64,000 bases of DNA from Paragyromitra xinjiangensis (Eukaryota; Ascomycota; Pezizomycetes; Pezizales; Discinaceae), in NCBI GenBank assembly GCA_038503065.1, contig JBCAMK010000009.1, positions 248,001-312,000 of the forward strand. The letters run 5' to 3'. Position numbers and translations under genes: made by a program. How positions within the stretch are numbered: position 1 is the first letter of the stretch; the number at the start of each line of letters is the position of its first letter. The notes beneath the pieces are model-generated. The model worked only from the letters and a program-made list of their open reading frames with translations, was not told the DNA's origin and searched no databases. This document shows, in pieces, positions 1,809-13,073 of this stretch.

Positions 1809-2193
1809 TGTGGTGGGGCGCACGGGAGGTGGAAGAAAGCGATGGATAGTCACGTGCGCAGTCACGTGTATAAGGGTTAGGGGTATTGACAGCGGAGGAT
1901 TTCTATTACTGTTCAACATTTCCTGTCGATTCACTACTCATTTTCTTTCCTATCTATCTACCTATCTATCTATTGTTGTATCGTATTCCTTTGCGGCGGG
2001 CTTTTGCCTTGCCTAATTCGTATCGAATATATCCTTCCTATTCGCTCGATTCCACGCCTAATAATCCGCATATATGTGCCTCGCTATAGGACATCGAAGT
2101 CCGCGTCGACGCAGTCTCTTCTTCACAGCGCGAAGGCAGCGAATATCAGATCTCTGCGTCAAACTGGCAGAGTCTCCTACGCACTCGCCCACA
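1809..2193 (+). repeat. Element 1 5' LTR
   Basis: 385 bp, TGTGGTGGGG at the start and CCCACA at the end. It matches 12689-13073 base for base as read, offset 10880. It contains two CACGTG words and a TATA-like box, a TCTATCTATCTACC microsatellite near 1951-1975, and one copy of the CCGCGTCGACGC word at 2101-2112. Confidence 0.92.
1851..1875 (+). promoter_or_regulatory. LTR promoter: twin CACGTG boxes and TATA-like box
   Basis: AGTCACGTG occurs twice, with CACGTG at 1851-1856 and 1863-1868, immediately followed by TATAAGG at 1869-1875. CACGTG is the core E-box bound by bHLH factors in fungi. Together with the TATA-like box this is the likely U3 promoter. The same arrangement is in the 3' LTR at 12731-12755. 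Confidence 0.5.
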
Positions 2194-5148
2194 ATGGTCC
2201 CTTCGACCAGAGAGATTGATACGCTAGGCTTCCTAAGCACGAAGAAAAGCAGTCACGTAGCGAATCGCACGCACATACGGAAGGCACGGGATTTGGAGAA
2301 GCTCTTCGGCAGAGAATTCCCACGGCGGAATAGACTGTGGAGACGCTATAGGACGCTAGAAGAGTTTTCTTCGGCAGAGAATTCCCTGTGCGGAATAGGC
2401 TGCGAAGTTACGGGATATAGAGCATTTGAGGCGGCAGAGAAATTCCACAGCGGATTAGACTGTGCCTATTGCGGCAGAGGTCGACTTGCTAAGAGCGACG
2501 GACTGCGCAAGGAAAAATTTGTGGCAGGGAAGTCTTCTGAGGAAGGGCTAGGCTGTACAATTAATACGGGATCTCGGAGATTCAGCTGCCGAATCCGCAA
2601 GAAGGCAGCAGACGCCACGGGAGACGTATACCCCCCCAATGCCCCGCGGAAAGGCAAGAAGAAAGATTCAGACTTCGTACGATTCACAGCAGAATTCGCA
2701 GCATTCACAGTATTCACCGTATTCGCCCTATCAATCGCAATAAGCATGTCGACTCCACGGTCCACAGTCAACTCCACGCCAACGGCAGGCACGCCAATTA
2801 CCACTGCCTCTGCAGATTTGCTTATCGAAGGTCTTCGGAAGCAATTGACGCATATGCCCTTTCCTGGAACCCACGGTGCCCCGCACTTCGACGGAAACGA
2901 TGCCACGGATTTCCTAGAGCATTATGAGCTTCTATACGAAGAATTCGGAGAGTCGGAGAAGGCGGCTGTGAAGAAACTCCCTCTCTATTGCGTCAGCTCT
3001 ATTGGTGCCACGATTCGTTATTTGCAGGGATATGTGGATGGAGACTGGCAAGTGTTGCGGAAGGAGATTCTGGAGGAATATAGAGCGCAGGATACGAAAC
3101 AGCAGATGTATACGGTAAGATTCCTGGAAGAGCTGACTGCCGCGCAGAAGAAGAAAACAGGCGATATACGCCCCTTTGTGCGCACGTTTACGGCAGTTTC
3201 CACTAGTCTTAAGACCACAGGCATGCTTTCGGAATATCAGGAGATTCAGCTGTTTCTAGGAGGGCTGCAATTAGATCTTGCCAGGAAGCTGATTATCAAA
3301 TTCAAATTGGATGTCAACGTGCCCAGCTCCTTTCAAGGCAAATATGCCTTGATTAGGAAAGAGGCTCAGGATTATTGCTTAGGCACGCTTCGCACGGAGG
3401 AATTGATGAAGAAGGGTGAGTTTTCTTCCGAGGTGCTTATTGACCAGCTTTTAGCGCAGGAAACGAAGCCGAAGCCTTCAGTATCAGCCAGTTTCGGAGG
3501 ATCGCAGCCGGTGCAGTCAGCGCAGATTGCGCAGACTACGCAGCCAGCTCAACGCCAAAGCCATAGTATTGACGTCACAAGCGCAATTGACGACATTTCG
3601 AAGCGCATGGAAGCCATGGTTTTACGCCAACAGGCGCAATTTATGGAGAGTTTTAGCAGAGCCAACGTCGGCGCCAGAGCGCCTCCGCCGCAAGCCTACA
3701 ACACGCCAGGTCCTGCTTCGGGAGCAAATGCAATTCCGCTCCGGAATCCGCAGCCAGCTCAGCAGTACGCTCCAAATCTTCAGTATACTCCGGCAAGGCG
3801 TTGCATATTTTGTGCAGATCCCACGCATTTGAAGAATCAATGCCCTGCTTTGATGGCTAAAGAGCGCGCAGGATTAGTGCATAGGGCTGTAGGAGGGAGA
3901 ATTCACTGGGGAGGTGAAGGCTCCGGAGGAGATGTGGTAGAGCCGTGGGAGAGAAGTACGGGAAGAAATATGCTGCAGCAAGTGGAGGCCAGAGAGCAAC
4001 AACCTCCGCAGCCGTCGCAACAGCCAGGCGTAAGGCGAATCAAAGCTGCGCCTAGTCCTAGCCGCGGTCCGAGTTTCGAGGTCAGAATGGCGCGTTTAGG
4101 GGAATTAGATGAAGAAAGCAGCGAGGAGGAGGTAGTAGAGGAAGAGTTGGAGTCGGAGTTGGACTCGAGCTCGGAGTCGGAGTCAGAGGAAGAGGCGAAT
4201 TGGTACGTTTCTGCAGTCAAACCTGCGCGTGTGGAAAAGCGCAGGGCGCCAGCGAAGAAGGAAAAGGTGGAAGATCTCAAGAAAAGAATTGAGAGGCAGG
4301 AAGGGTTACCAAATGCTCGGGCACCCAGGCCTAGAGCATATCCTCCAGTAGAAACTGTGGAAGTGGAGATGCAGGAAGATAAGCCTACGAAGAAGCCGGA
4401 AAAGAAGCCCGTTGCGCCACGAAGAGCCCTTAGAGATGATGCCATAGGCGCCCCCTCCGAAGAAGAGCTTTTCCACAGACTGGCAACGGAAAAGTCGATT
4501 AATATCAGTATTTCGGAATTAGTCTCTATTTCTCCTCCCTTCAAGAAATATCTATACGGCAGGGGCGTGCCGCCAGCGCCAGCTGCGAAGGTTTCCAAAG
4601 CACACGCATCTCCACGCGATTCCCAGACTCGGAGAATTAGGCATCAAGTCGAATACGCTGCTGAGTCAGGCCTAATTCCCATTAGTATCAACGGCGTTTT
4701 GCTGCAGCCAACGGGAGATAATGGATCAGAAATCAATCGAATGGGTTGGTCGGAATTCGAGAGTTTGAATTTGCCATACGACGACCAAGTGGACTGGACC
4801 ATGACCGGAATTACTGGAGATTCCACACCTCTGACCTGCTGTATTCATGAAGCGCCCGTTAGTGTAGGAGGTGCCGTGGTTTATACACCAATATTCGCAT
4901 CTCCAGGAGTGGAAGGCGAATTCGTGTTAGGGCGCCCATTCGAACGCGCTGCCTTACTAAAGTGGACGAATAAGGATGACGGCTCAATGTGGGGTACGAT
5001 TTGGTCCTCTGATCGCTTAAAGAAGGCCAAATTCATGGCAGTTCCGCCTGAAGGGTATGCGCGCACTTCAGTAAGGGAAGCAAAAGGGCAGTGGATGCGT
5101 AGGAGGCGAGGCGGCGGTCAGGAGGCGGGAAACGGGAGATCTCAGTAA
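2194..5148 (+). CDS. gag: Element 1 gag (capsid/nucleocapsid) with retropepsin-like C-terminus
   Basis: This frame starts at ATG 2194, directly after the LTR, and stops at 5146-5148 (984 aa); an internal ATG at 2746 (MSTPRSTVNS) is an alternative start, and the frame is open further up into the LTR. The middle holds a gag-like helical domain. A CCHC zinc knuckle (CIFC, then H and C, spacing C-x2-C-x4-H-x4-C) is encoded at 3802-3843. A long acidic Glu/Ser linker follows (about 4110-4200). The C-terminal part has GDNGSEIN and, about 80 residues on, VLGRPF, the layout of a retropepsin with Asp-Asn-Gly in place of Asp-Thr/Ser-Gly. Gag packages the RNA in virus-like particles. Pol is reached by -1 frameshifting near the end of this ORF. 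Confidence 0.85.
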   Translation: MVPSTREIDTLGFLSTKKSSHVANRTHIRKARDLEKLFGREFPRRNRLWRRYRTLEEFSSAENSLCGIGCEVTGYRAFEAAEKFHSGLDCAYCGRGRLAKSDGLRKEKFVAGKSSEEGLGCTINTGSRRFSCRIRKKAADATGDVYPPNAPRKGKKKDSDFVRFTAEFAAFTVFTVFALSIAISMSTPRSTVNSTPTAGTPITTASADLLIEGLRKQLTHMPFPGTHGAPHFDGNDATDFLEHYELLYEEFGESEKAAVKKLPLYCVSSIGATIRYLQGYVDGDWQVLRKEILEEYRAQDTKQQMYTVRFLEELTAAQKKKTGDIRPFVRTFTAVSTSLKTTGMLSEYQEIQLFLGGLQLDLARKLIIKFKLDVNVPSSFQGKYALIRKEAQDYCLGTLRTEELMKKGEFSSEVLIDQLLAQETKPKPSVSASFGGSQPVQSAQIAQTTQPAQRQSHSIDVTSAIDDISKRMEAMVLRQQAQFMESFSRANVGARAPPPQAYNTPGPASGANAIPLRNPQPAQQYAPNLQYTPARRCIFCADPTHLKNQCPALMAKERAGLVHRAVGGRIHWGGEGSGGDVVEPWERSTGRNMLQQVEAREQQPPQPSQQPGVRRIKAAPSPSRGPSFEVRMARLGELDEESSEEEVVEEELESELDSSSESESEEEANWYVSAVKPARVEKRRAPAKKEKVEDLKKRIERQEGLPNARAPRPRAYPPVETVEVEMQEDKPTKKPEKKPVAPRRALRDDAIGAPSEEELFHRLATEKSINISISELVSISPPFKKYLYGRGVPPAPAAKVSKAHASPRDSQTRRIRHQVEYAAESGLIPISINGVLLQPTGDNGSEINRMGWSEFESLNLPYDDQVDWTMTGITGDSTPLTCCIHEAPVSVGGAVVYTPIFASPGVEGEFVLGRPFERAALLKWTNKDDGSMWGTIWSSDRLKKAKFMAVPPEGYARTSVREAKGQWMRRRRGGGQEAGNGRSQ
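2195..2209 (+). other. Putative primer binding site / small hairpin
   Basis: One base after the LTR and following residue comes TGGTCCCTTCGACCA. It begins TGG, as primer sites complementary to a tRNA 3' CCA do, but it is also self-complementary (TGGTC/GACCA with a 5-nt loop). I cannot assign a tRNA. Confidence 0.35.
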
Positions 5149-5169
5149 GCGCGGAGGTGCTTACTGAGA
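5127..5169 (+). promoter_or_regulatory. -1 programmed ribosomal frameshift signal, gag to pol
   Basis: GGGAAAC at 5127-5133 is in the gag frame as G GGA AAC, a canonical slippery heptamer. After a 6-nt spacer (5134-5139) an 11-bp perfect stem follows: TCTCAGTAAGC (5140-5150), 8-nt loop, GCTTACTGAGA (5159-5169). The gag stop codon (5146-5148) lies inside the 5' arm. A -1 slip here enters the frame that stays open to 5792, which carries the N-terminal part of pol. Confidence 0.8.
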
Positions 5170-5792
5170 AGAGGCGGCGGAAACCTCCGGAGGAAGTGGT
5201 CGGAAGAGTGGCGGAAGTGGTGGAAGAAGTGGGGGGTGTGGTCGGAAGAGCGCAGGAGACTCCGCGTCGACGCGGAGTCTTGCGAGGTGCGGAAAGAGAG
5301 GTGCGGATGCGGCGCTGTATGGCAGTTTGGAATGAAATTCAGCGAGCGGGAAGTGGAGTAAGCAGCAGGAGGCTGTATAAGAATAAGAAGGAGAAGGTGC
5401 GCCCGCAGAACGTCAAAGGGGATGGCGGCGCTGCAGAAGGAAATCCGAATTGGAAGCAGGATTGCCTGAAGGAAGAAAAGAGGCGAGGGCTGGATAAGCC
5501 CGTTGGCCCTTTCGATCACATCCTTACGCCCAAATTCAGCAGTGTTCCACGAGGGTCTCGTCTCACGAAAGAAAGAATAGCGGAAATGGATATAGGGCAC
5601 CTTCAGCCAAAAGAGCGAGAGCTTTTGATGGAAATGCTGTACAATAGGGAGGCTGCTGTGGCATTCGAATTCACAGAAATTGGCTTATTCAAGTCGGAAG
5701 TTGAGCCTCCACACGTAATTCGGACGATTCCACACGTGCCTTGGCAGGAAGCTCCCTTCAAGACACCCAGAGCCCTGGAAGGAGGTTATTGA
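5134..5792 (+). CDS. pol: Element 1 pol, N-terminal segment
   Basis: This is the -1 frame relative to gag, open from the slippery site to the stop at 5790-5792; there is no good ATG near its start, which fits a frameshift product. The first part is Arg/Glu-rich linker. The end (HVPWQEAPFKTP) is the connector that precedes reverse transcriptase fingers in gypsy elements. Just before the stop the homology moves to the +1 frame (PWKEVIEILKARM, then the pol ORF), so a one-base insertion around 5770-5775, or a second recoding event, separates this segment from the rest of pol. The 24-bp palindrome at 5257-5280 lies within it. Confidence 0.7.
5257..5280 (+). repeat. Perfect 24-bp palindrome, best copy of the element 1 CCGCGTCGACGC word
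   Basis: AGACTCCGCGTC is followed directly by its exact reverse complement. The core TCCGCGTCGACGC occurs seven times in element 1: 2100-2112, 5261-5273, 7150-7162, 8551-8563, 10374-10386, 12438-12450 and 12980-12992. I found no copy elsewhere in the window. Confidence 0.85.
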
Positions 5793-5808
5793 AATCCTGA
5801 AGGCGCGG

Positions 5809-8697
5809 ATGGCAGGAGGCACTCTAGAGCGCTGCGGGCCGTATCGAAATCCTTGGTTTCTAGTAAAGAAAAAGCAGGGCGGGCATCGATTGGTCGCCTC
5901 TTTCACTAAAGCCAACAGCCATACGATATTAGATGCGGCACTGCCTCCTAGGGTTGACGAATTCAGCGAAGAATTCGCTGGAATGGCAATAGCCTCGATT
6001 ATAGATCTATTCTCCGGCTACGACCAGGTCGATTTAGCGGAAGAAAGCAGAGATATGACTGCTATTCAGACACCTTTAGGCCTGCTTCGGTATACTCGAA
6101 TGGTACAAGGAGGCACGAATTCAGTGCAGGCATTTCAGCGAATCAATTCCAAAGCGCAGCATGACAATATTCCGGAACGCTGCAGGGTCTTTCTCGACGA
6201 TGTGGGTGTAAAAGGGCCAACTTCGCGGTATGATGATGAGGAAATAAGCCCTGGAATTCGAAGATTCGTACAAGAGCATATCGTCAATTTGGACCGAGTC
6301 CTAGCAGATTACGAAAGGGCAGGCGCCACAGTGGCGGGAATTAAATCTTCTTGGTGCAAGCCTGGAATCAAGATCGTGGGATTCGTTTGTACGGAAGAAG
6401 GGCGATTTCCTGATGCAAAGAAAGTGGAAAAGATCGTACTTTGGCCTGCCTGCGATTCAGTTACGGAAGTCCGAGCCTTCCTAGGAGTTGCCACCTATTA
6501 TAGGATTTGGATCGAAGGATTTGCGATTATCGCGGCGCCGTTATTCTTCCTGCAGCGAAAAGGGGTGGTTTTCGTATGGGCGGAAGAGCAGGAGGAAGCA
6601 ATGGGAACGATCAAAAAGGCACTGACTACTGCACCAGCGCTGGCTACGCCACAATATGGTCCGTTGGCAGGCCTGCTGATTTTAGGAGTGGATGCCGGAG
6701 GAGAAGGTTGGGGCGCAGTGTTGATGCAGTTGCTGGGAGATATAAGGCATCCTTGCAGGTATGAGAGCGGGTTGTGGGCGCCTGCAGAGAGGCAGTATGA
6801 CGCGGGGAAGAAAGAGTGCAAAGGACTGCTTAAAGCGCTGAAGAAGATGCGCTTTTGGCTCTATGGAGTTAGATTCCGTGTGGAAATCGACGCTCGTACG
6901 CTGGTTCACCAATTGAATCTTCCTGCCAATGATCTTCCAGGCGCAATGGTCACCCGTTGGATTGCGTGGATTCGCCTCTTCGATTTCGATGTGGTCCACG
7001 TCCCAGGAAAGCAGCATACTGCAGCAGATGGATTATCGAGGCGTAAGGGGACTGAAGAGGATGTGGCGGAAGCAGAGGCGGAAGATGTGGAGGAATTAGA
7101 GGAATTCCTCGATGATCAACTATTCGCCAGCCGGGTAACCGCAGGAGAGTCCGCGTCGACGCGAGGTCCTGTTAATCCTTTTGTATGCTTAGCCAAAGGA
7201 GAGTATAGTGGGCGTTGGCAGCAGATTGGTGAATTCCTGGAATCTCTAACTATGCCGGAGGACCTCTCGGAGAAGCAGCGGAAGGCGTTTAGGCGAGAAG
7301 CAACCAAATTCCTAATTCGAGACGGGCACCTATTCCGGAGAGGTCGTGAGAATCAGCCGCCGAAGCGAGTGATATGCAATGGACCAGAAAAGCAGCAAAT
7401 CCTGAAGGATCTCCACGACGAATCAGGGCATAGAGGCAGAGAAGGCACGTTTAAGAAGATATCTCAGCGCTTTTGGTGGCGTGGATTAGCCAAAGATGTG
7501 GAGGAATTCGTTCGAACCTGCGAGCAATGCCAACTTCGAGCCTCCGCCAGATATCCCGACGAATTACACCCTACATTTGGCACTTCGCTATTCGAGAAGG
7601 TCTGTGTAGACATCGTGCATATGCCTGCTGGAAGTGATCGAAATCGGTATCTAGTCCTCGCTAGAGATGATTTCTCAGGATGGGCGGAAGGACGTGCTTT
7701 GACTAGAGGAAGCTCGGAGAAGGTGGCGGATTTCCTATTCCAGGAGGTGATTTCACGATTCGGATGCCCTAGGAAGATTGTGGTGGATGGAGGGCCAGAG
7801 AATAAGGCATTTACGGAGCGCCTGTGCAATCGGTATAATATCAATAGAAAGGTCGTTTCTGCATATCATCCGCAGGCAAATGGGCTGGTCGAGCGTGGGC
7901 ATCAGCAAATAGTGGATGCTTTGCAGAAGATCTCCAAACAGCCGAAAGATTGGCCTAATCATCTTCACTCTGTGCTTTGGGCGGATCGAATTACGGTTAG
8001 AAGGTCCACAGGAAAGGCGCCTTTTGAGCTCGTTTTTGGGTGGCAGTGTGTGCTTCCAGTGGAGATAACTATGAGCTCGTGGGGCAGTATTGAGTGGCAG
8101 GATATCCACTCTAGGGCGGATTTATTGGCAGCTCGGGCCAGGCAATTGGAGATGCGAGACGAGGATATTGAGGAAGCAGCAATTCGGCTGAGAGAAAGCA
8201 GGTCGGAGAATAAGCGGTATTTCGACTCCCATAGGAGAAAACGGCCTAATTCGCAGACCTTGAGCGTTGGAGATCTCGTGCTTCTCCACAATACGAAGCT
8301 AGAAAAGCAGTGGAGTGATAAGCTGGCGAATAGATGGCGTGGACCCTTTCGAATTCGGGAAATATCTCCGGTAGGCACCGTGGTTTTGGAGGAGCTCGAT
8401 GGCACGCTTTTAGGCGGTACTACGCCTCCAGATCGTGTTAAACGCTTCTTTCAACGCGCAGGGGAAATCGCAGAAGGAATCGCAGAGGATCTCGCAGAAG
8501 ATCTCGCAGAGGAATCCGCTGAGGAGTTAGGAGAGGAGGACGCGGAAGTGTCCGCGTCGACGCGGGAACCGCAGGATGAGGCGGAGATAGAGGCGGAAGT
8601 TGAGGAAGATGTGGAAATGGAGGAAGATGTTTCTGTGGTTGATGGTAAGCGTGTGAAGCCTAAGAAAGACTGGGGCTTCTACGTGCAGTTGCCTTAA
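5809..8697 (+). CDS. pol: Element 1 pol: reverse transcriptase, RNase H, integrase
   Basis: 962 codons from ATG 5809, but the frame is open upstream and joins the segment ending at 5792 after one frame break, so this ATG is probably not the true start. Reverse transcriptase motifs: IIDLFSGYDQ (motif A) and FLDD at 6190-6201 (residues 128-131, usual YLDD). RNase H: GVDAGGEGWGAVL, EIDARTLVHQL and HTAADGLSR. Integrase: HHCC zinc finger from about 7411 to 7535, then catalytic D601, D660, E695 (DGGPEN and ANGLVERGH). The C-terminal part has a GPFRI-type integrase tail and an acidic low-complexity end; I see no chromodomain. It carries two copies of the CCGCGTCGACGC word, read as SASTR. Confidence 0.9.
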   Translation: MAGGTLERCGPYRNPWFLVKKKQGGHRLVASFTKANSHTILDAALPPRVDEFSEEFAGMAIASIIDLFSGYDQVDLAEESRDMTAIQTPLGLLRYTRMVQGGTNSVQAFQRINSKAQHDNIPERCRVFLDDVGVKGPTSRYDDEEISPGIRRFVQEHIVNLDRVLADYERAGATVAGIKSSWCKPGIKIVGFVCTEEGRFPDAKKVEKIVLWPACDSVTEVRAFLGVATYYRIWIEGFAIIAAPLFFLQRKGVVFVWAEEQEEAMGTIKKALTTAPALATPQYGPLAGLLILGVDAGGEGWGAVLMQLLGDIRHPCRYESGLWAPAERQYDAGKKECKGLLKALKKMRFWLYGVRFRVEIDARTLVHQLNLPANDLPGAMVTRWIAWIRLFDFDVVHVPGKQHTAADGLSRRKGTEEDVAEAEAEDVEELEEFLDDQLFASRVTAGESASTRGPVNPFVCLAKGEYSGRWQQIGEFLESLTMPEDLSEKQRKAFRREATKFLIRDGHLFRRGRENQPPKRVICNGPEKQQILKDLHDESGHRGREGTFKKISQRFWWRGLAKDVEEFVRTCEQCQLRASARYPDELHPTFGTSLFEKVCVDIVHMPAGSDRNRYLVLARDDFSGWAEGRALTRGSSEKVADFLFQEVISRFGCPRKIVVDGGPENKAFTERLCNRYNINRKVVSAYHPQANGLVERGHQQIVDALQKISKQPKDWPNHLHSVLWADRITVRRSTGKAPFELVFGWQCVLPVEITMSSWGSIEWQDIHSRADLLAARARQLEMRDEDIEEAAIRLRESRSENKRYFDSHRRKRPNSQTLSVGDLVLLHNTKLEKQWSDKLANRWRGPFRIREISPVGTVVLEELDGTLLGGTTPPDRVKRFFQRAGEIAEGIAEDLAEDLAEESAEELGEEDAEVSASTREPQDEAEIEAEVEEDVEMEEDVSVVDGKRVKPKKDWGFYVQLP

Positions 8698-9461
8698 TAC
8701 CACTAAAGGGGGGGCCCTTACGAGTTTCCTTTGTACCGTTTCTTTGGCTCTTATTCGTCGTTTCCCTCGTCAACTCGTCGTTTCTTCCGTTTCTATTTAC
8801 CTGTATTTCCTTCGTCTATTCCTTCGTATATTCCTTCGTCAGTTGATTCGTTTCTATTTACCTGTATTTCCTTCGTCTATTCCTTCGTATATTCCTTCGT
8901 CAGTTGATTCGTATCTATTTGCCTGTATTTCCTTCATAACTATTCGTCTATTCTTTCGTCGACTCCTTCGCATCTATTCGTCTGTTCCTCGTCAGCTCGT
9001 TGTTTCATATATTTACCTGTATTTCCTTCGTCTATTCCTCAGCTTCGGATATCTATGTTTCTATTAGCTGTATTTTCATCTATATACCTGTATTTGGCGG
9101 ATTTAGTGTCTTTTCCTATGTTTCAGCGGAAGAGGTGTATTTGCGGTGGTCGGGAGTTGAAATAAGGTTGGGGCTCTGCGGGAGTCGCCGGCGGAGTAGG
9201 GCTTAGGGCTATGACGCAGAGGTATCAGAAACGCCATGACCTCTTCTTTATTAGGAGGGGAGGGGGAAGCAAACCTGCTTCCTAGGACTAATCTCCTACA
9301 ACTCTCGCCTAAGGAAGGATCTCGTCGAAATCTCCGCAATCAGTTTGATTCCTTACTATCAAGTTGACCCTCGATATCAAGTTGCCTGCCTGCCACCAAA
9401 AGCTTATATCCATATCAGCGCTTTCAAGTTGGGCGCCATCTCTTTGTTCTACTACGTCATC
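8698..9461 (+). other. Spacer between pol and third ORF: second polypurine tract and 61-bp repeat
   Basis: Eight bases after the pol stop is AAAGGGGGGG (8705-8714), which looks like a polypurine tract although the 3' LTR is 4 kb away. From about 8789 to 8948 a pyrimidine-rich 61-bp unit (GTTTCTATTTACCTGTATTT...) is repeated twice plus a degenerate third copy. No ORF of note is seen. Confidence 0.6.
8789..8948 (+). repeat. 61-bp pyrimidine-rich tandem repeat
   Basis: Copies begin at 8789, 8850 and 8911 (third degenerate) with GTTTCTATTTACCTG or GTATCTATTTGCCTG; further CTATT-CGTC words continue to about 9050. It is not in any supported coding frame. Confidence 0.75.
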
Positions 9462-12400
9462 ATGAAACAGCAGCGCGCCATGTTTACTCCCATAAATGAG
9501 CCGGCTGGCCCCAGCACTCCGGAGGGCAGAAAAACGAGAGGCAGCAGATCAGAGTCGTTGTCGCCAAATACGGTCAAGAAAATGGTACACAGAGCGCCGA
9601 AAACCTCAGGCCATACGGGCACCAACGAAATCATCGAAATCACGAGAGAAAGCGTACTGCAGCAGCGCGCCAAACATGGCCTGCGCAGTTTAATCGAGAA
9701 GGCCATGGCAGCGCATAAAGACCCCGTATCTCGTGCCGCTGTTGCTAAGGATGCCCTGGAGGTGTTTGCAGAAGCGCGGGAGGTTTCGGATGAGGGAATC
9801 TCGAGGATTTGGGCGGATTATGTGGAGAAAGAAGGGCTATGGGATCAGTTTGGTGGAGAAGCGGCGTTTAGGGCTATGATGGATTATGATAACGTAATTG
9901 CGCCGGCGCAGGAGCGTTATAGAGCCACCGATGGCAGGAAGGAGAGGGCGAGGAAGTTGATTTGTGAGAAGTGGGGCGACCAATGGGAGGAGGAATTCGA
10001 TCCACAGGAGTACCGCTTGCGCCAATTCTCAGAGCATTTCCTACGTCAATTAGCGGCAATTGCCAGAGAAGGATGGTCGAGAGATCAGGCCTGGAAGGCA
10101 CTAGACGCAGGCTATCGAATGCGCCTGCAGGATCGAACCTCCGGTCAGCAGAAAGCCTTGGTATTCATGCCTAAAGATGTGGCATATGCCAAGGAGTGGT
10201 TAACGAAGGCAGGAGAGGGGAAGGAAACGAAAGAGGAGGTTCGGGATGAGGATTTGGTGTTGGCGTGGCCTGTGGAAGTTAGGCCGAAGCAGATTAAGCC
10301 AAAGGCTGCTAAAAAGGGGAAGTCGCTGGAGAGAGTAGTGGAGGAAGTGGGAAGTGGTGCGGAAGACGAGGACTCCGCGTCGACGCAGACTCCTCGCTTG
10401 GTGCCGGAGGAGGCTGAGGAGGCTGGTAAGGCCGTGGAGGCGCAAGCGCAGCGCCAATTGGAAAAAGGAAAGGGGAAGGAAGTGGCGGAAGAAGAAGTGG
10501 AAGAGGTGCAGAAAGGTGTGGAATTGGAAGAGGAAGAGGATATCCATAGGTCCGAAGCATGTGGTTGTGGAGAGTATCTCTCCAAGGCATGGGTTTCTAA
10601 TCTGCGCAAATACCGAAGCGCAGAGGTGGTACCGCTTGCCTCGCAGGGCAAATATCTGCTGGATGGCGTGGAGGCAGGGCTTGATAATCTGTGCTGGGAG
10701 CACTTACAGCGGCTGGCTTCGTATGTTGGCCTGTATGTCAAGCGCCTGAACCGCGCGGAGATGACGCTGCGCCTGCAGCACATCCACAAGCAGTGGGATT
10801 CAATTGGGGATCTTCACGCTGCTGCGGCAACGTATGGTTGGTTTAGAAAGGGGGCGAGAGCGAAGGTGGAAGCTGACGATTTGGGGTCTTTGCTGTGGAA
10901 GCCAATTCCGTGGGAACTTCCGCAGTTTGATAGAGGGGAAGTCTTTGCGCGCTTTGGCAGTCAGGAGGCTTGGGATGCGTTTCTGGAGAAAGGCAATTGC
11001 GTGGTTCCGGCGTTTAGGTGGTTGACGGAGGAAACGGAGCTTTGGGCTAAGATCTCGGAGGAATTCGACCTATATCTCCACCATCAACGGAGTGATTCAA
11101 CGGGCTGGCTGCGGAATTGCTATCATTCCGTATTACAGCAGGCAATTAGGCAAGATCCCGTGTATTACGTTTTGGTGCTGGCTGCGAGGTCGGACCGCGC
11201 CTATCGAATGTTGGCCTTTCCTCACTACGCTAAGTATTCGCTGCCTGGAGATTATACGCAATTCCGCCATATAGATCTGAATCCTCGGAAGGCGTTAGAT
11301 ACGGGCGTGGGAGTGAATCATATCCAAACCTCGCTCTCGCTGGATCAGGAGATTCCGGAAGGCTGTACTGCGGTCGTTGAAGGCTTCCAGAATCACCTCG
11401 GGGAGTGGTGGGCTCGTGTGGAAGCGCGTGGAGATGCCAAGGATGGCAACTCCTTCCGGACCACCAAGACGTATTTGCAGGAGGATGAGGCGTCGTTTGG
11501 CAAGGAAACGAACGTGGTTTGCGCACCTGGAGATCTCCGAATTACGCTGCCGCATCTAATTCACGGGGCAACTGCTGGCGCCAAAGATAAGGCAATTCTG
11601 CAGCGGAGAACGGTGAATAATTGGCCCACAGCCATCCAGGGAGACGGAGAAGCCATGGAATTCCTGGAAATGGGCTCACGTGCCGACATCGCCGAAGCAC
11701 ATCGTTCGCTGACCGTGCTGCCACGGAATCCTACTGGGCAAATTAACGCCCACAGCCGCCCTAAAGCACGTTTTGCGAGTACTCCGGAGGTCCGAGGCGT
11801 GTGGGGAATTGGAGATGCGCTGCTGGGATTGGTGGATTGGGAGTCTGCTCGTGTGCGTTGGGAGTTGGAAATCTTGCTGGGGGTAGATGAGCGGAAGGCG
11901 TGGAAATTGGTGAGAAAGGTGCGGAGGAAGTTGAGGGAGGCTATGTGGGAGGGGTATAAGGTCCAGGAGTGGGCGGAGAGGCGAGATTTCGGCCCGAACT
12001 CCTATTTCCACGCCAGAGATACGGGCACTTGGGAACCCCCCATGCGAATTACCAAGGAAGGCAAGGAGTCGTTGCTGCGTGGAGGTTATTCGCTGGCAGG
12101 ATTTGGCTCGGATGTGGAATCGGAAGTGGAGGTGGAGTCGGAAGTAGAGGTGGAGTCTCCTATTAGGGAGGAATTAGAAGGTGTGGAGGACTCGGAGGTG
12201 GAATTGGGCTCTCCTATTAGGGAGGAGTTAGAGGTGGAAAAGGAAATAGAGCCCGAATTGGAGGACTCGGAAAAGGGATTGGAGGAATTGGAGGATCCGC
12301 CGGTTGATGTCGCCGCCGCAGCTGCTGTTGCTGCTAAGGATTCGTCTGCTGCTAAGGATTCGTCTGCTGCTGACGTTGCCCCGCCTGCTGCTAATGAAGG

Positions 12401-12527
12401 TATGCCTCCTCAGGAACCTCGCGTTTTGGCGGAAGACTCCGCGTCGACGCAGTCTCCTGCTAAGCGGAAGCTTTCTACGGCGTCGGAAGGGAAGAAGAAG
12501 CGACGGAGGAAGCGGATGAATTGGTAG
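9462..12527 (+). CDS. Element 1 third ORF: predicted 2-oxoglutarate/Fe(II) dioxygenase-like protein
   Basis: 1021 aa from the first in-frame ATG at 9462 (the frame is open 39 codons upstream without an ATG) to TAG at 12525-12527. The N-terminal third is helical and charged. A CGCGEY pair of cysteines is near 10561. From about residue 565 there is a segment with the order expected of a double-stranded beta-helix dioxygenase: FRHIDLN (His603-x-Asp605), a strand pair GVNHIQTSLSLD and CTAVVEGFQNHLGEW, then PGDLRITLPHLIHGAT (His698 or His701) and QRRTVNNW (Arg715/716). HxD...H binds Fe(II) and the Arg would bind 2-oxoglutarate. Closer family (PhyH, TET/JBP, AlkB) cannot be decided by eye. The C-terminus is acidic, then Ala-rich, then basic (KKKRRRKRM, nuclear-signal-like). 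It carries two SASTQ copies of the repeated palindromic word. Gypsy elements normally lack such an ORF. Confidence 0.7.
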   Translation: MKQQRAMFTPINEPAGPSTPEGRKTRGSRSESLSPNTVKKMVHRAPKTSGHTGTNEIIEITRESVLQQRAKHGLRSLIEKAMAAHKDPVSRAAVAKDALEVFAEAREVSDEGISRIWADYVEKEGLWDQFGGEAAFRAMMDYDNVIAPAQERYRATDGRKERARKLICEKWGDQWEEEFDPQEYRLRQFSEHFLRQLAAIAREGWSRDQAWKALDAGYRMRLQDRTSGQQKALVFMPKDVAYAKEWLTKAGEGKETKEEVRDEDLVLAWPVEVRPKQIKPKAAKKGKSLERVVEEVGSGAEDEDSASTQTPRLVPEEAEEAGKAVEAQAQRQLEKGKGKEVAEEEVEEVQKGVELEEEEDIHRSEACGCGEYLSKAWVSNLRKYRSAEVVPLASQGKYLLDGVEAGLDNLCWEHLQRLASYVGLYVKRLNRAEMTLRLQHIHKQWDSIGDLHAAAATYGWFRKGARAKVEADDLGSLLWKPIPWELPQFDRGEVFARFGSQEAWDAFLEKGNCVVPAFRWLTEETELWAKISEEFDLYLHHQRSDSTGWLRNCYHSVLQQAIRQDPVYYVLVLAARSDRAYRMLAFPHYAKYSLPGDYTQFRHIDLNPRKALDTGVGVNHIQTSLSLDQEIPEGCTAVVEGFQNHLGEWWARVEARGDAKDGNSFRTTKTYLQEDEASFGKETNVVCAPGDLRITLPHLIHGATAGAKDKAILQRRTVNNWPTAIQGDGEAMEFLEMGSRADIAEAHRSLTVLPRNPTGQINAHSRPKARFASTPEVRGVWGIGDALLGLVDWESARVRWELEILLGVDERKAWKLVRKVRRKLREAMWEGYKVQEWAERRDFGPNSYFHARDTGTWEPPMRITKEGKESLLRGGYSLAGFGSDVESEVEVESEVEVESPIREELEGVEDSEVELGSPIREELEVEKEIEPELEDSEKGLEELEDPPVDVAAAAAVAAKDSSAAKDSSAADVAPPAANEGMPPQEPRVLAEDSASTQSPAKRKLSTASEGKKKRRRKRMNW

Positions 12528-12675
12528 GGGTGCGGAGTCTTAGGAGGGGAGGTTTCTTCGGTCTGTTTTCTCGTTTCGTTGGCTGTTTCTCGTGTTTCCT
12601 ACGTATAGATTAGCATATGATTCCTTTGTTTTCTCTGTTTTGGGAGGGGGTTAATGGCCAGGGGACGGCCATTGT

Positions 12676-12687
12676 AGGAGGGGAGGA
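12676..12687 (+). other. Element 1 polypurine tract
   Basis: AGGAGGGGAGGA lies directly before the 3' LTR (one base gap), the expected place of the plus-strand primer. Confidence 0.75.
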
Positions 12688-12688
12688 T

Positions 12689-13073
12689 TGTGGTGGGGCG
12701 CACGGGAGGTGGAAGAAAGCGATGGATAGTCACGTGCGCAGTCACGTGTATAAGGGTTAGGGGTATTGACAGCGGAGGATTTCTATTACTGTTCAACATT
12801 TCCTGTCGATTCACTACTCATTTTCTTTCCTATCTATCTACCTATCTATCTATTGTTGTATCGTATTCCTTTGCGGCGGGCTTTTGCCTTGCCTAATTCG
12901 TATCGAATATATCCTTCCTATTCGCTCGATTCCACGCCTAATAATCCGCATATATGTGCCTCGCTATAGGACATCGAAGTCCGCGTCGACGCAGTCTCTT
13001 CTTCACAGCGCGAAGGCAGCGAATATCAGATCTCTGCGTCAAACTGGCAGAGTCTCCTACGCACTCGCCCACA
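12689..13073 (+). repeat. Element 1 3' LTR
   Basis: Same 385 bp as 1809-2193, with TG and CA ends, followed by the GCGC target duplication at 13074-13077. Confidence 0.92.

Follow-up and report, generated by a model that had tools for sequence, protein, structure and literature searches.

Can a retrotransposon come to encode, and keep, an oxygenase of its own? The question is raised by a 64,000-nucleotide stretch of the Paragyromitra xinjiangensis genome (contig JBCAMK010000009.1, positions 248,001 to 312,000), here called the window, which contains an 11.3 kb long terminal repeat (LTR) retrotransposon of the Ty3/Gypsy group at 1809-13073. Between its pol gene, encoding reverse transcriptase (RT), RNase H and integrase, and its 3' LTR sits a third open reading frame, ORF3 (9462..12527; all element features lie on the plus strand), which begins with an ATG and specifies a predicted oxygenase-domain protein of 1021 amino acids. 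A preliminary description of the window had proposed a 2-oxoglutarate (2OG)/Fe(II) oxygenase-like domain within this frame, and its coordinates for frame and motifs prove right (FRHIDLN at residue 601, the H603 codon at 11268 and the R715/R716 codons at 11604-11609). The proposal of such a domain in the third frame of a Gypsy element also stands, as its score against a profile of the phytanoyl-CoA-dioxygenase (PhyH) family exceeds those of all shuffled and control sequences.

A PhyH-like core in ORF3

The segment tested as the core comprises residues 484-745 (10911..11696). Compared by hhalign with a PhyH profile built from bacterial members and members from the same genome, it scored 32.76 (P 1.7e-4), against a best of 22.0 among 100 column shuffles and 14.2 for the reversed sequence. 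With a larger profile of 47 members the score was 32.88 (E 1.1e-4) and the best of 150 shuffles 22.2. The query is effectively a single sequence (Neff 1) because the 15 copies in the ORF3 alignment, A1, are nearly identical. The core also outscored all 76 control segments, which were drawn from real proteins, namely those of elements plus a cyanophage stretch. The five highest-scoring controls reached 31.1 (31.05), 28.5, 26.5, 25.9 and 22.8; the highest is itself a 2OG oxygenase, and of the five, four lie above a Pfam 2OG cut-off and one resembles 2OG oxygenases by weak Pfam/PHROG similarity. The sixth and seventh segments scored 20.5 and 20.4 and, as the seventh is a Pfam 2OG oxygenase, true members can score that low. 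Known superfamily links are recovered by hhalign at a level like that of ORF3 for PhyH against TET/JBP (34.6) and 2OG-FeII_Oxy_5 (35.0), while others are missed (PhyH against AlkB 19.1, the remainder 11.4-18.7). For the core, a hidden Markov model (HMM) built on 16 PhyH seeds yielded 2.3 bits, a value reached by 3 of 336 scored shuffles. With 39 members the HMM yielded 9.9 bits, more than any of the 385 shuffles (of 500) that received a score, but only 1.3 bits for the whole of ORF3. The profile similarity to a member family of the 2OG/Fe(II) oxygenase superfamily is beyond chance, and on this sequence evidence the core very probably adopts the 2OG-oxygenase fold.

Candidate active-site residues

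The segments of ORF3 follow the order seen in PhyH, namely N-terminal segment, EGC motif, PGD and HG. The N-terminal segment, which begins SQEAWDAFLEKGNCVVPAF (residues 500-534, 10959..11063), is collinear with the PhyH N-terminus, and residues 484-600 score 18.6 against PhyH, the best of 60 shuffles reaching 15.8. Within FRHIDLN, H603-I-D605 (11268..11276) would supply the first two iron ligands as an HxD motif; its position is near that in PhyH, yet none of the profile alignments pairs the two motifs, and MAFFT placed the PhyH HxD a few residues earlier. The counterpart of PhyH NGxLxxVPGSH is EGCTAVVEGFQNH (residues 633-645, 11358..11396). Further on, PGDLRITLPHLIHG (11526..11567), with PGDLRITLPHLIHGAT at residue 689, contains the proposed distal iron ligand H701 (codon 11562). 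The profile match extends from the NGxLxxVPGSH counterpart to PGD...H701G, and hmmsearch, hhalign and MAFFT alike align this counterpart with its PhyH motif and H701 with the PhyH distal His. R715-R716 (11604..11609) falls within QRRTVNNW at residue 714, R716 being the proposed 2OG-binding Arg. ORF3 therefore carries a conserved HxD...H plus Arg, in which the distal His is placed by alignment, and the HxD and Arg by motif or position only.

The HxD, His and Arg named in the preliminary description are conserved among copies. When motifs were sought with up to six mismatches, and one chance R716 match on contig C1 was set aside, H603, D605, H701 and R716 were each found to be kept at all 21 places in the genome that carry ORF3, including copies broken elsewhere. 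I604, L606, P608, D691, T695 and R715 vary among places, R715 being W in one. Taken alone, the invariance of the four residues is modest evidence, the whole protein being highly conserved. Near the C-terminus of ORF3 a basic tail, KRKLSTASEGKKKRRRKR (12462..12515), may act as a nuclear localisation signal.

Relationship to other oxygenase families

The preliminary description had linked the domain with TET/JBP oxygenases. The 2OG oxygenase-like part of that reading holds; the TET/JBP association does not, since profile, motif and spacing favour PhyH. ORF3 possesses the NGxLxxVPGSH-like motif, the GD and the distal HG of PhyH, and its EG motif is separated from PGD by 56 residues. The corresponding interval measures 49-57 residues in three PhyH proteins and 17 in two of the genome's own TET/JBP proteins (L032, L033); the comparison equates TET GGDL with PhyH NGxL by our own judgement. 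Membership of TET/JBP (PF12851) was rejected on this spacing, the lack of a Pfam match and an hhalign score of 13.0 against a shallow profile of four own-genome matches, and membership of AlkB (PF13532) on the lack of a Pfam match and a score of 13.4 against a likewise shallow profile of eight sequences. The Oxy_5 profile, also shallow, gave 13.7. Non-matches to AlkB, TET and Oxy_5 are weak evidence because hhalign also misses known superfamily links. Profile, motif and spacing together make it likely that the nearest family of the ORF3 domain is PhyH and not TET/JBP.

A scan for viral TET relatives, intended to deepen the TET profile, found none. The genome itself has four TET/JBP-like coding matches (L031-L034), two of them above the family cut-off and the best with stops; L033 and L034 are nearly identical, and the element may share the genome with a TET system of the host or of a transposon. 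A cyanophage protein (L066:35155-35679) labelled 'DNA endonuclease V' in PHROGs obtains a score with the PhyH profile and shows weak similarity to 2OG families, so that label may be wrong. Matches of ORF3 to ThsA and to nitrogen regulators (E 0.17-1.9) were set aside as weak and not following the motifs.

ORF3 is a gene of the element

Searching the genome (48.2 Mb, 22 contigs) returned 59 ORF3 stretches, which were grouped by hand into the 21 places, not counting two short fragments on contig C10. An LTR search in which 40 of 70 candidates were scored yielded 16 pairs spanning 7.9-13.4 kb and left eight scored LTRs unpaired. Each of the 16 pairs found encloses ORF3 together with pol of the same family, and the recurrence of the frame inside other LTR pairs, a point raised in the preliminary description, is thereby confirmed within this genome. 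Five ORF3 places lie outside any listed pair. In the pol search 47 of 221 candidates were scored and grouped into 19 places of the family, and each of the 19 has an ORF3 no more than 8 kb away in the same orientation. Pol of the next Gypsy families in the genome shares only 28% identity with that of this family. A six-frame search at E <= 10 detected no relative of ORF3 outside the family or in the host genome, all 36 matches falling at element places, and none was found in bacterial or archaeal genome contigs or in viral contigs.

Among the copies, ORF3 is under purifying selection. Estimated from 36 pairs drawn from nine copies (one with a stop and two truncated in the match), the pairs not being independent, dN/dS is 0.092 for the whole of ORF3 and 0.054 for the core, so that the comparison across copies suggested in the preliminary description comes out in favour of constraint. 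Elsewhere the values are 0.068 (residues 1-290), 0.063 (365-483) and 0.118 (746-880), rising to 0.247 in one low-complexity stretch (291-364) and to 0.197 in the other (881-1021). In three of the nine copies pol gives 0.011-0.096 and ORF3 0.081-0.091; selection on ORF3 is therefore of the same order as that on pol. Because it lies in every LTR pair found and beside every pol place found, and because its core is so constrained, ORF3 belongs to the element and is one of its genes. A third open reading frame is unusual in Gypsy elements, which would suit a host gene captured by one insertion and carried as a passenger. For this genome such capture is refuted by the LTR-pair counts, by the dN/dS of 0.09 across copies and by the absence of a host relative in the six-frame search, and we regard it as extremely improbable.

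A possible role in escape from silencing

We propose that ORF3 is an element-encoded PhyH-type 2OG/Fe(II) oxygenase. Its β-helix core (residues ~484-735) would bind iron via H603, D605 and H701, and 2OG via R716. The protein would be made from the element's own RNA and would probably enter the nucleus via its basic tail. Its most likely action there would be to hydroxylate a methyl group that serves the host as a mark against the element, whether on DNA, on RNA or on a chromatin protein. Removal of the mark would allow element transcription to continue. A nuclear protein acting for the element is the best explanation because ORF3 is element-encoded, is under selection and has the basic tail. 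The action of PHYHD1, a PhyH protein, on free 2'-O-methylnucleosides (PMC12709175, in excerpt) implies that PhyH enzymes can reach nucleic-acid-derived substrates. The proposal is favoured too by the earlier recruitment of 2OG oxygenases in orchid Gypsy elements and in fungal DNA transposons, and by the TET/JBP-like matches in this genome. ORF3 is probably an active enzyme. For the explanation as a whole, a nuclear PhyH-type oxygenase that erases a host silencing mark, we see about an even chance. We infer the fold, catalysis, nuclear location, substrate class and role alike, and hold the anti-silencing role itself to be slightly less probable than even.

Several observations weigh against this explanation, and the first of them concern the identity of the domain. 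Sequence searches of Pfam, NCBIfam, PHROGs and PDB with ORF3, its pieces and the A1 profile gave no 2OG family at E <= 10; PhyH PF05721 had no ORF3 match at this threshold, so the Pfam gathering score is not reached. Two AlphaFold models, with pLDDT of 32.6 from the single sequence and 34.8 with eight bacterial PhyH sequences, are too poor for use. The significant alignment to PhyH begins at about residue 620 and leaves the HxD at 603-605 outside, 17 residues ahead; because the alignment starts after it, the assignment of H603 and D605 follows from motif, order and invariance. Scored by itself against PhyH, the HxD stretch fails to exceed its shuffles (15.4 versus 18.4 for residues 560-650; 15.1 versus 16.7 for 590-660). 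Add to this that PhyH alone of four profiles is significant, the shallow AlkB, TET and Oxy_5 profiles giving 13.0-13.7, and the lack of a usable structural model and of library matches could mean that the β-helix resemblance is accidental and that ORF3 is an unrelated element-specific protein. Against this, the core outscores all 100 and all 150 shuffles as well as each of the 76 control segments, and three methods agree on the position of the distal His, which makes an accident very unlikely. That no family library searched recognises ORF3 would equally fit a degenerate or scaffold β-helix without catalysis, such as a structural or envelope-like protein, and the position of ORF3 is that of env in some Gypsy elements. 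A scaffold is harder to reconcile with H, D, H and R being kept at 21 of 21 places, and an envelope-like protein with the absence of a transmembrane stretch from ORF3 (highest 19-residue hydropathy mean 0.83); we consider a non-catalytic protein of this kind quite unlikely.

The remaining points concern the proposed task. Characterised PhyH enzymes mostly have small-molecule substrates. PHYHD1 demethylates free 2'-O-methylnucleosides and not nucleotides or RNA, as far as the excerpt of PMC12709175 goes. A comparison of the window copy with 21 loci, representing 17 distinct copies, puts C>T changes at 3.3-13.8% for CpG versus 3.1-5.5% for other C/G, and the CpG observed/expected ratio of the window copy is 0.94-1.29. 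With so little CpG hypermutation and such a ratio, cytosine methylation of the element is not evident, which speaks against a role involving 5-methylcytosine. CpG transitions stand out in one locus, L012 (13.8% versus 5.5%), and less so in L010, L002, L005, L007 and L009. Decay resembling repeat-induced point mutation (RIP) was considered and rejected for the stop-bearing loci, which we read as broken mainly by frameshifts because they differ from the window copy at only 5.4-8.3% of DNA positions.

The low CpG hypermutation, the presence of the gene in all 16 LTR pairs and the activity of PhyH relatives on modified nucleosides (PMC12709175, same excerpt) would also be consistent with an oxygenase that is active for replication, for example by modifying, during reverse transcription, the element RNA, the tRNA primer or a nucleoside pool. 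The basic tail at the C-terminus points to a nuclear protein instead, and the other Gypsy families, those with pol 28% identical, have no ORF3 relative at E <= 10; since they lack a detectable relative, ORF3 is not needed for replication in general. A replicative function is unlikely in our view.

Architecture of the window copy

The 5' LTR (1809..2193) and 3' LTR (12689..13073) are identical, 385 nt long and bounded by TG...CA, and a 4-bp direct repeat, GCGC, flanks the pair on both sides. ORF1 (2074..5148, the start being the opening of the frame, which lies inside the LTR) is gag-like, with a zinc knuckle, CIFCADPTHLKNQC, at 3802. A short ORF (5157..5792) precedes the pol ORF (5809..8697), which encodes RT, RNase H, an H2C2 zinc-binding domain and an integrase core (Pfam RVT_1 E 4.4e-10, RT_RNaseH_2 E 1.7e-18, Integrase_H2C2 E 3.8e-20 and rve E 1.6e-9). 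The order RT, RNase H, integrase (Pfam positions 53-192, 257-388 and 527-688) is that of Ty3/Gypsy, to which the element belongs by its TG...CA LTR pair, target-site duplication and pol domain order. Together the identical LTRs and the pol matches bear out the earlier placing of ORF3 inside the LTRs and downstream of integrase. A frame change between 5792 and 5809 divides the pol region of the window copy in two, whereas in several other copies this region is open over 1139-1211 amino acids. The spacer between pol and ORF3 (8698-9461) is long and pyrimidine-rich, includes three 61-nt tandem repeats (8775..8957) and is a possible promoter or splice-acceptor region for ORF3. An array of 40-base tandem repeats (702-1429) lies directly upstream of the 5' LTR.

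The purine-rich 12-mer TAGGAGGGGAGG occurs three times on the plus strand of the 64-kb window, always within this element. It forms the 3' polypurine tract adjoining the 3' LTR (12675..12686), recurs 210 nt upstream of ORF3 (9252..9263) and again directly after the ORF3 stop (12541..12552); counted in nine copies, the first two of these are present in all nine and the last in eight. ORF3 is therefore bracketed by copies of the polypurine tract, which may serve as additional plus-strand primers or be a scar left by the acquisition of ORF3.

Comparison with known systems

ORF3 shares with PhyH (PF05721) the order of N-terminal helix-strand segment, HxD, NGxLxxVPGSH-like motif, GD, HG and R. Its R716 lies 15 residues past the distal His; a count by hand in the PhyH proteins L173 and L174 gives 11-13. 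Unlike the family, ORF3 has no Pfam match, and its core is set inside a 1021-residue protein with large unmatched flanks. PHYHD1 and SnoK, members of the family, appear among the PDB relatives of the PhyH match that this genome itself contains.

Among transposable elements, Phalaenopsis Ty3/Gypsy elements carry an AlkB-type 2OG-dependent dioxygenase in an additional ORF, with in vitro m6A RNA demethylation (PMC9289625, in excerpt). The earlier statement that Gypsy elements do not usually encode an oxygenase has to be qualified by this orchid precedent, as the element here is not the first case. Orchid and fungal elements are alike in having an extra ORF with a 2OG/Fe(II) oxygenase, in many copies and in one lineage; the orchid elements are 25 kb long with an AlkB-like domain (PF13532) found by standard profiles (same excerpt of PMC9289625), whereas the element here is 11 kb long with a PhyH-like core. 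Fungal DNA transposons carry TET/JBP dioxygenases, according to the portion of PMC12730594 consulted, and are likewise fungal transposons with an HxD...H 2OG oxygenase, from which ORF3 differs in its PhyH spacing. Among the titles and abstract openings that literature searches of open-licence PMC papers brought up, none mentions a 2OG oxygenase, of PhyH type or otherwise, in a retrotransposon of fungi, and a PhyH-type oxygenase in a fungal Gypsy element appears to be new. The retention of another kind of 2OG oxygenase by a Gypsy family, under strong selection, would demonstrate that enzymes of this class can be maintained by retrotransposons, and ORF3 offers a testable protein for asking whether demethylation lets elements escape silencing. 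It is a rather doubtful proposition that a Gypsy lineage adopted a PhyH-type oxygenase to erase a silencing mark on its own chromatin or RNA. If true, PhyH would join TET/JBP of DNA transposons and AlkB of orchid Gypsy elements as the third enzyme family recruited by transposons in this way, and its chemistry on nucleic acids or histones would be new.
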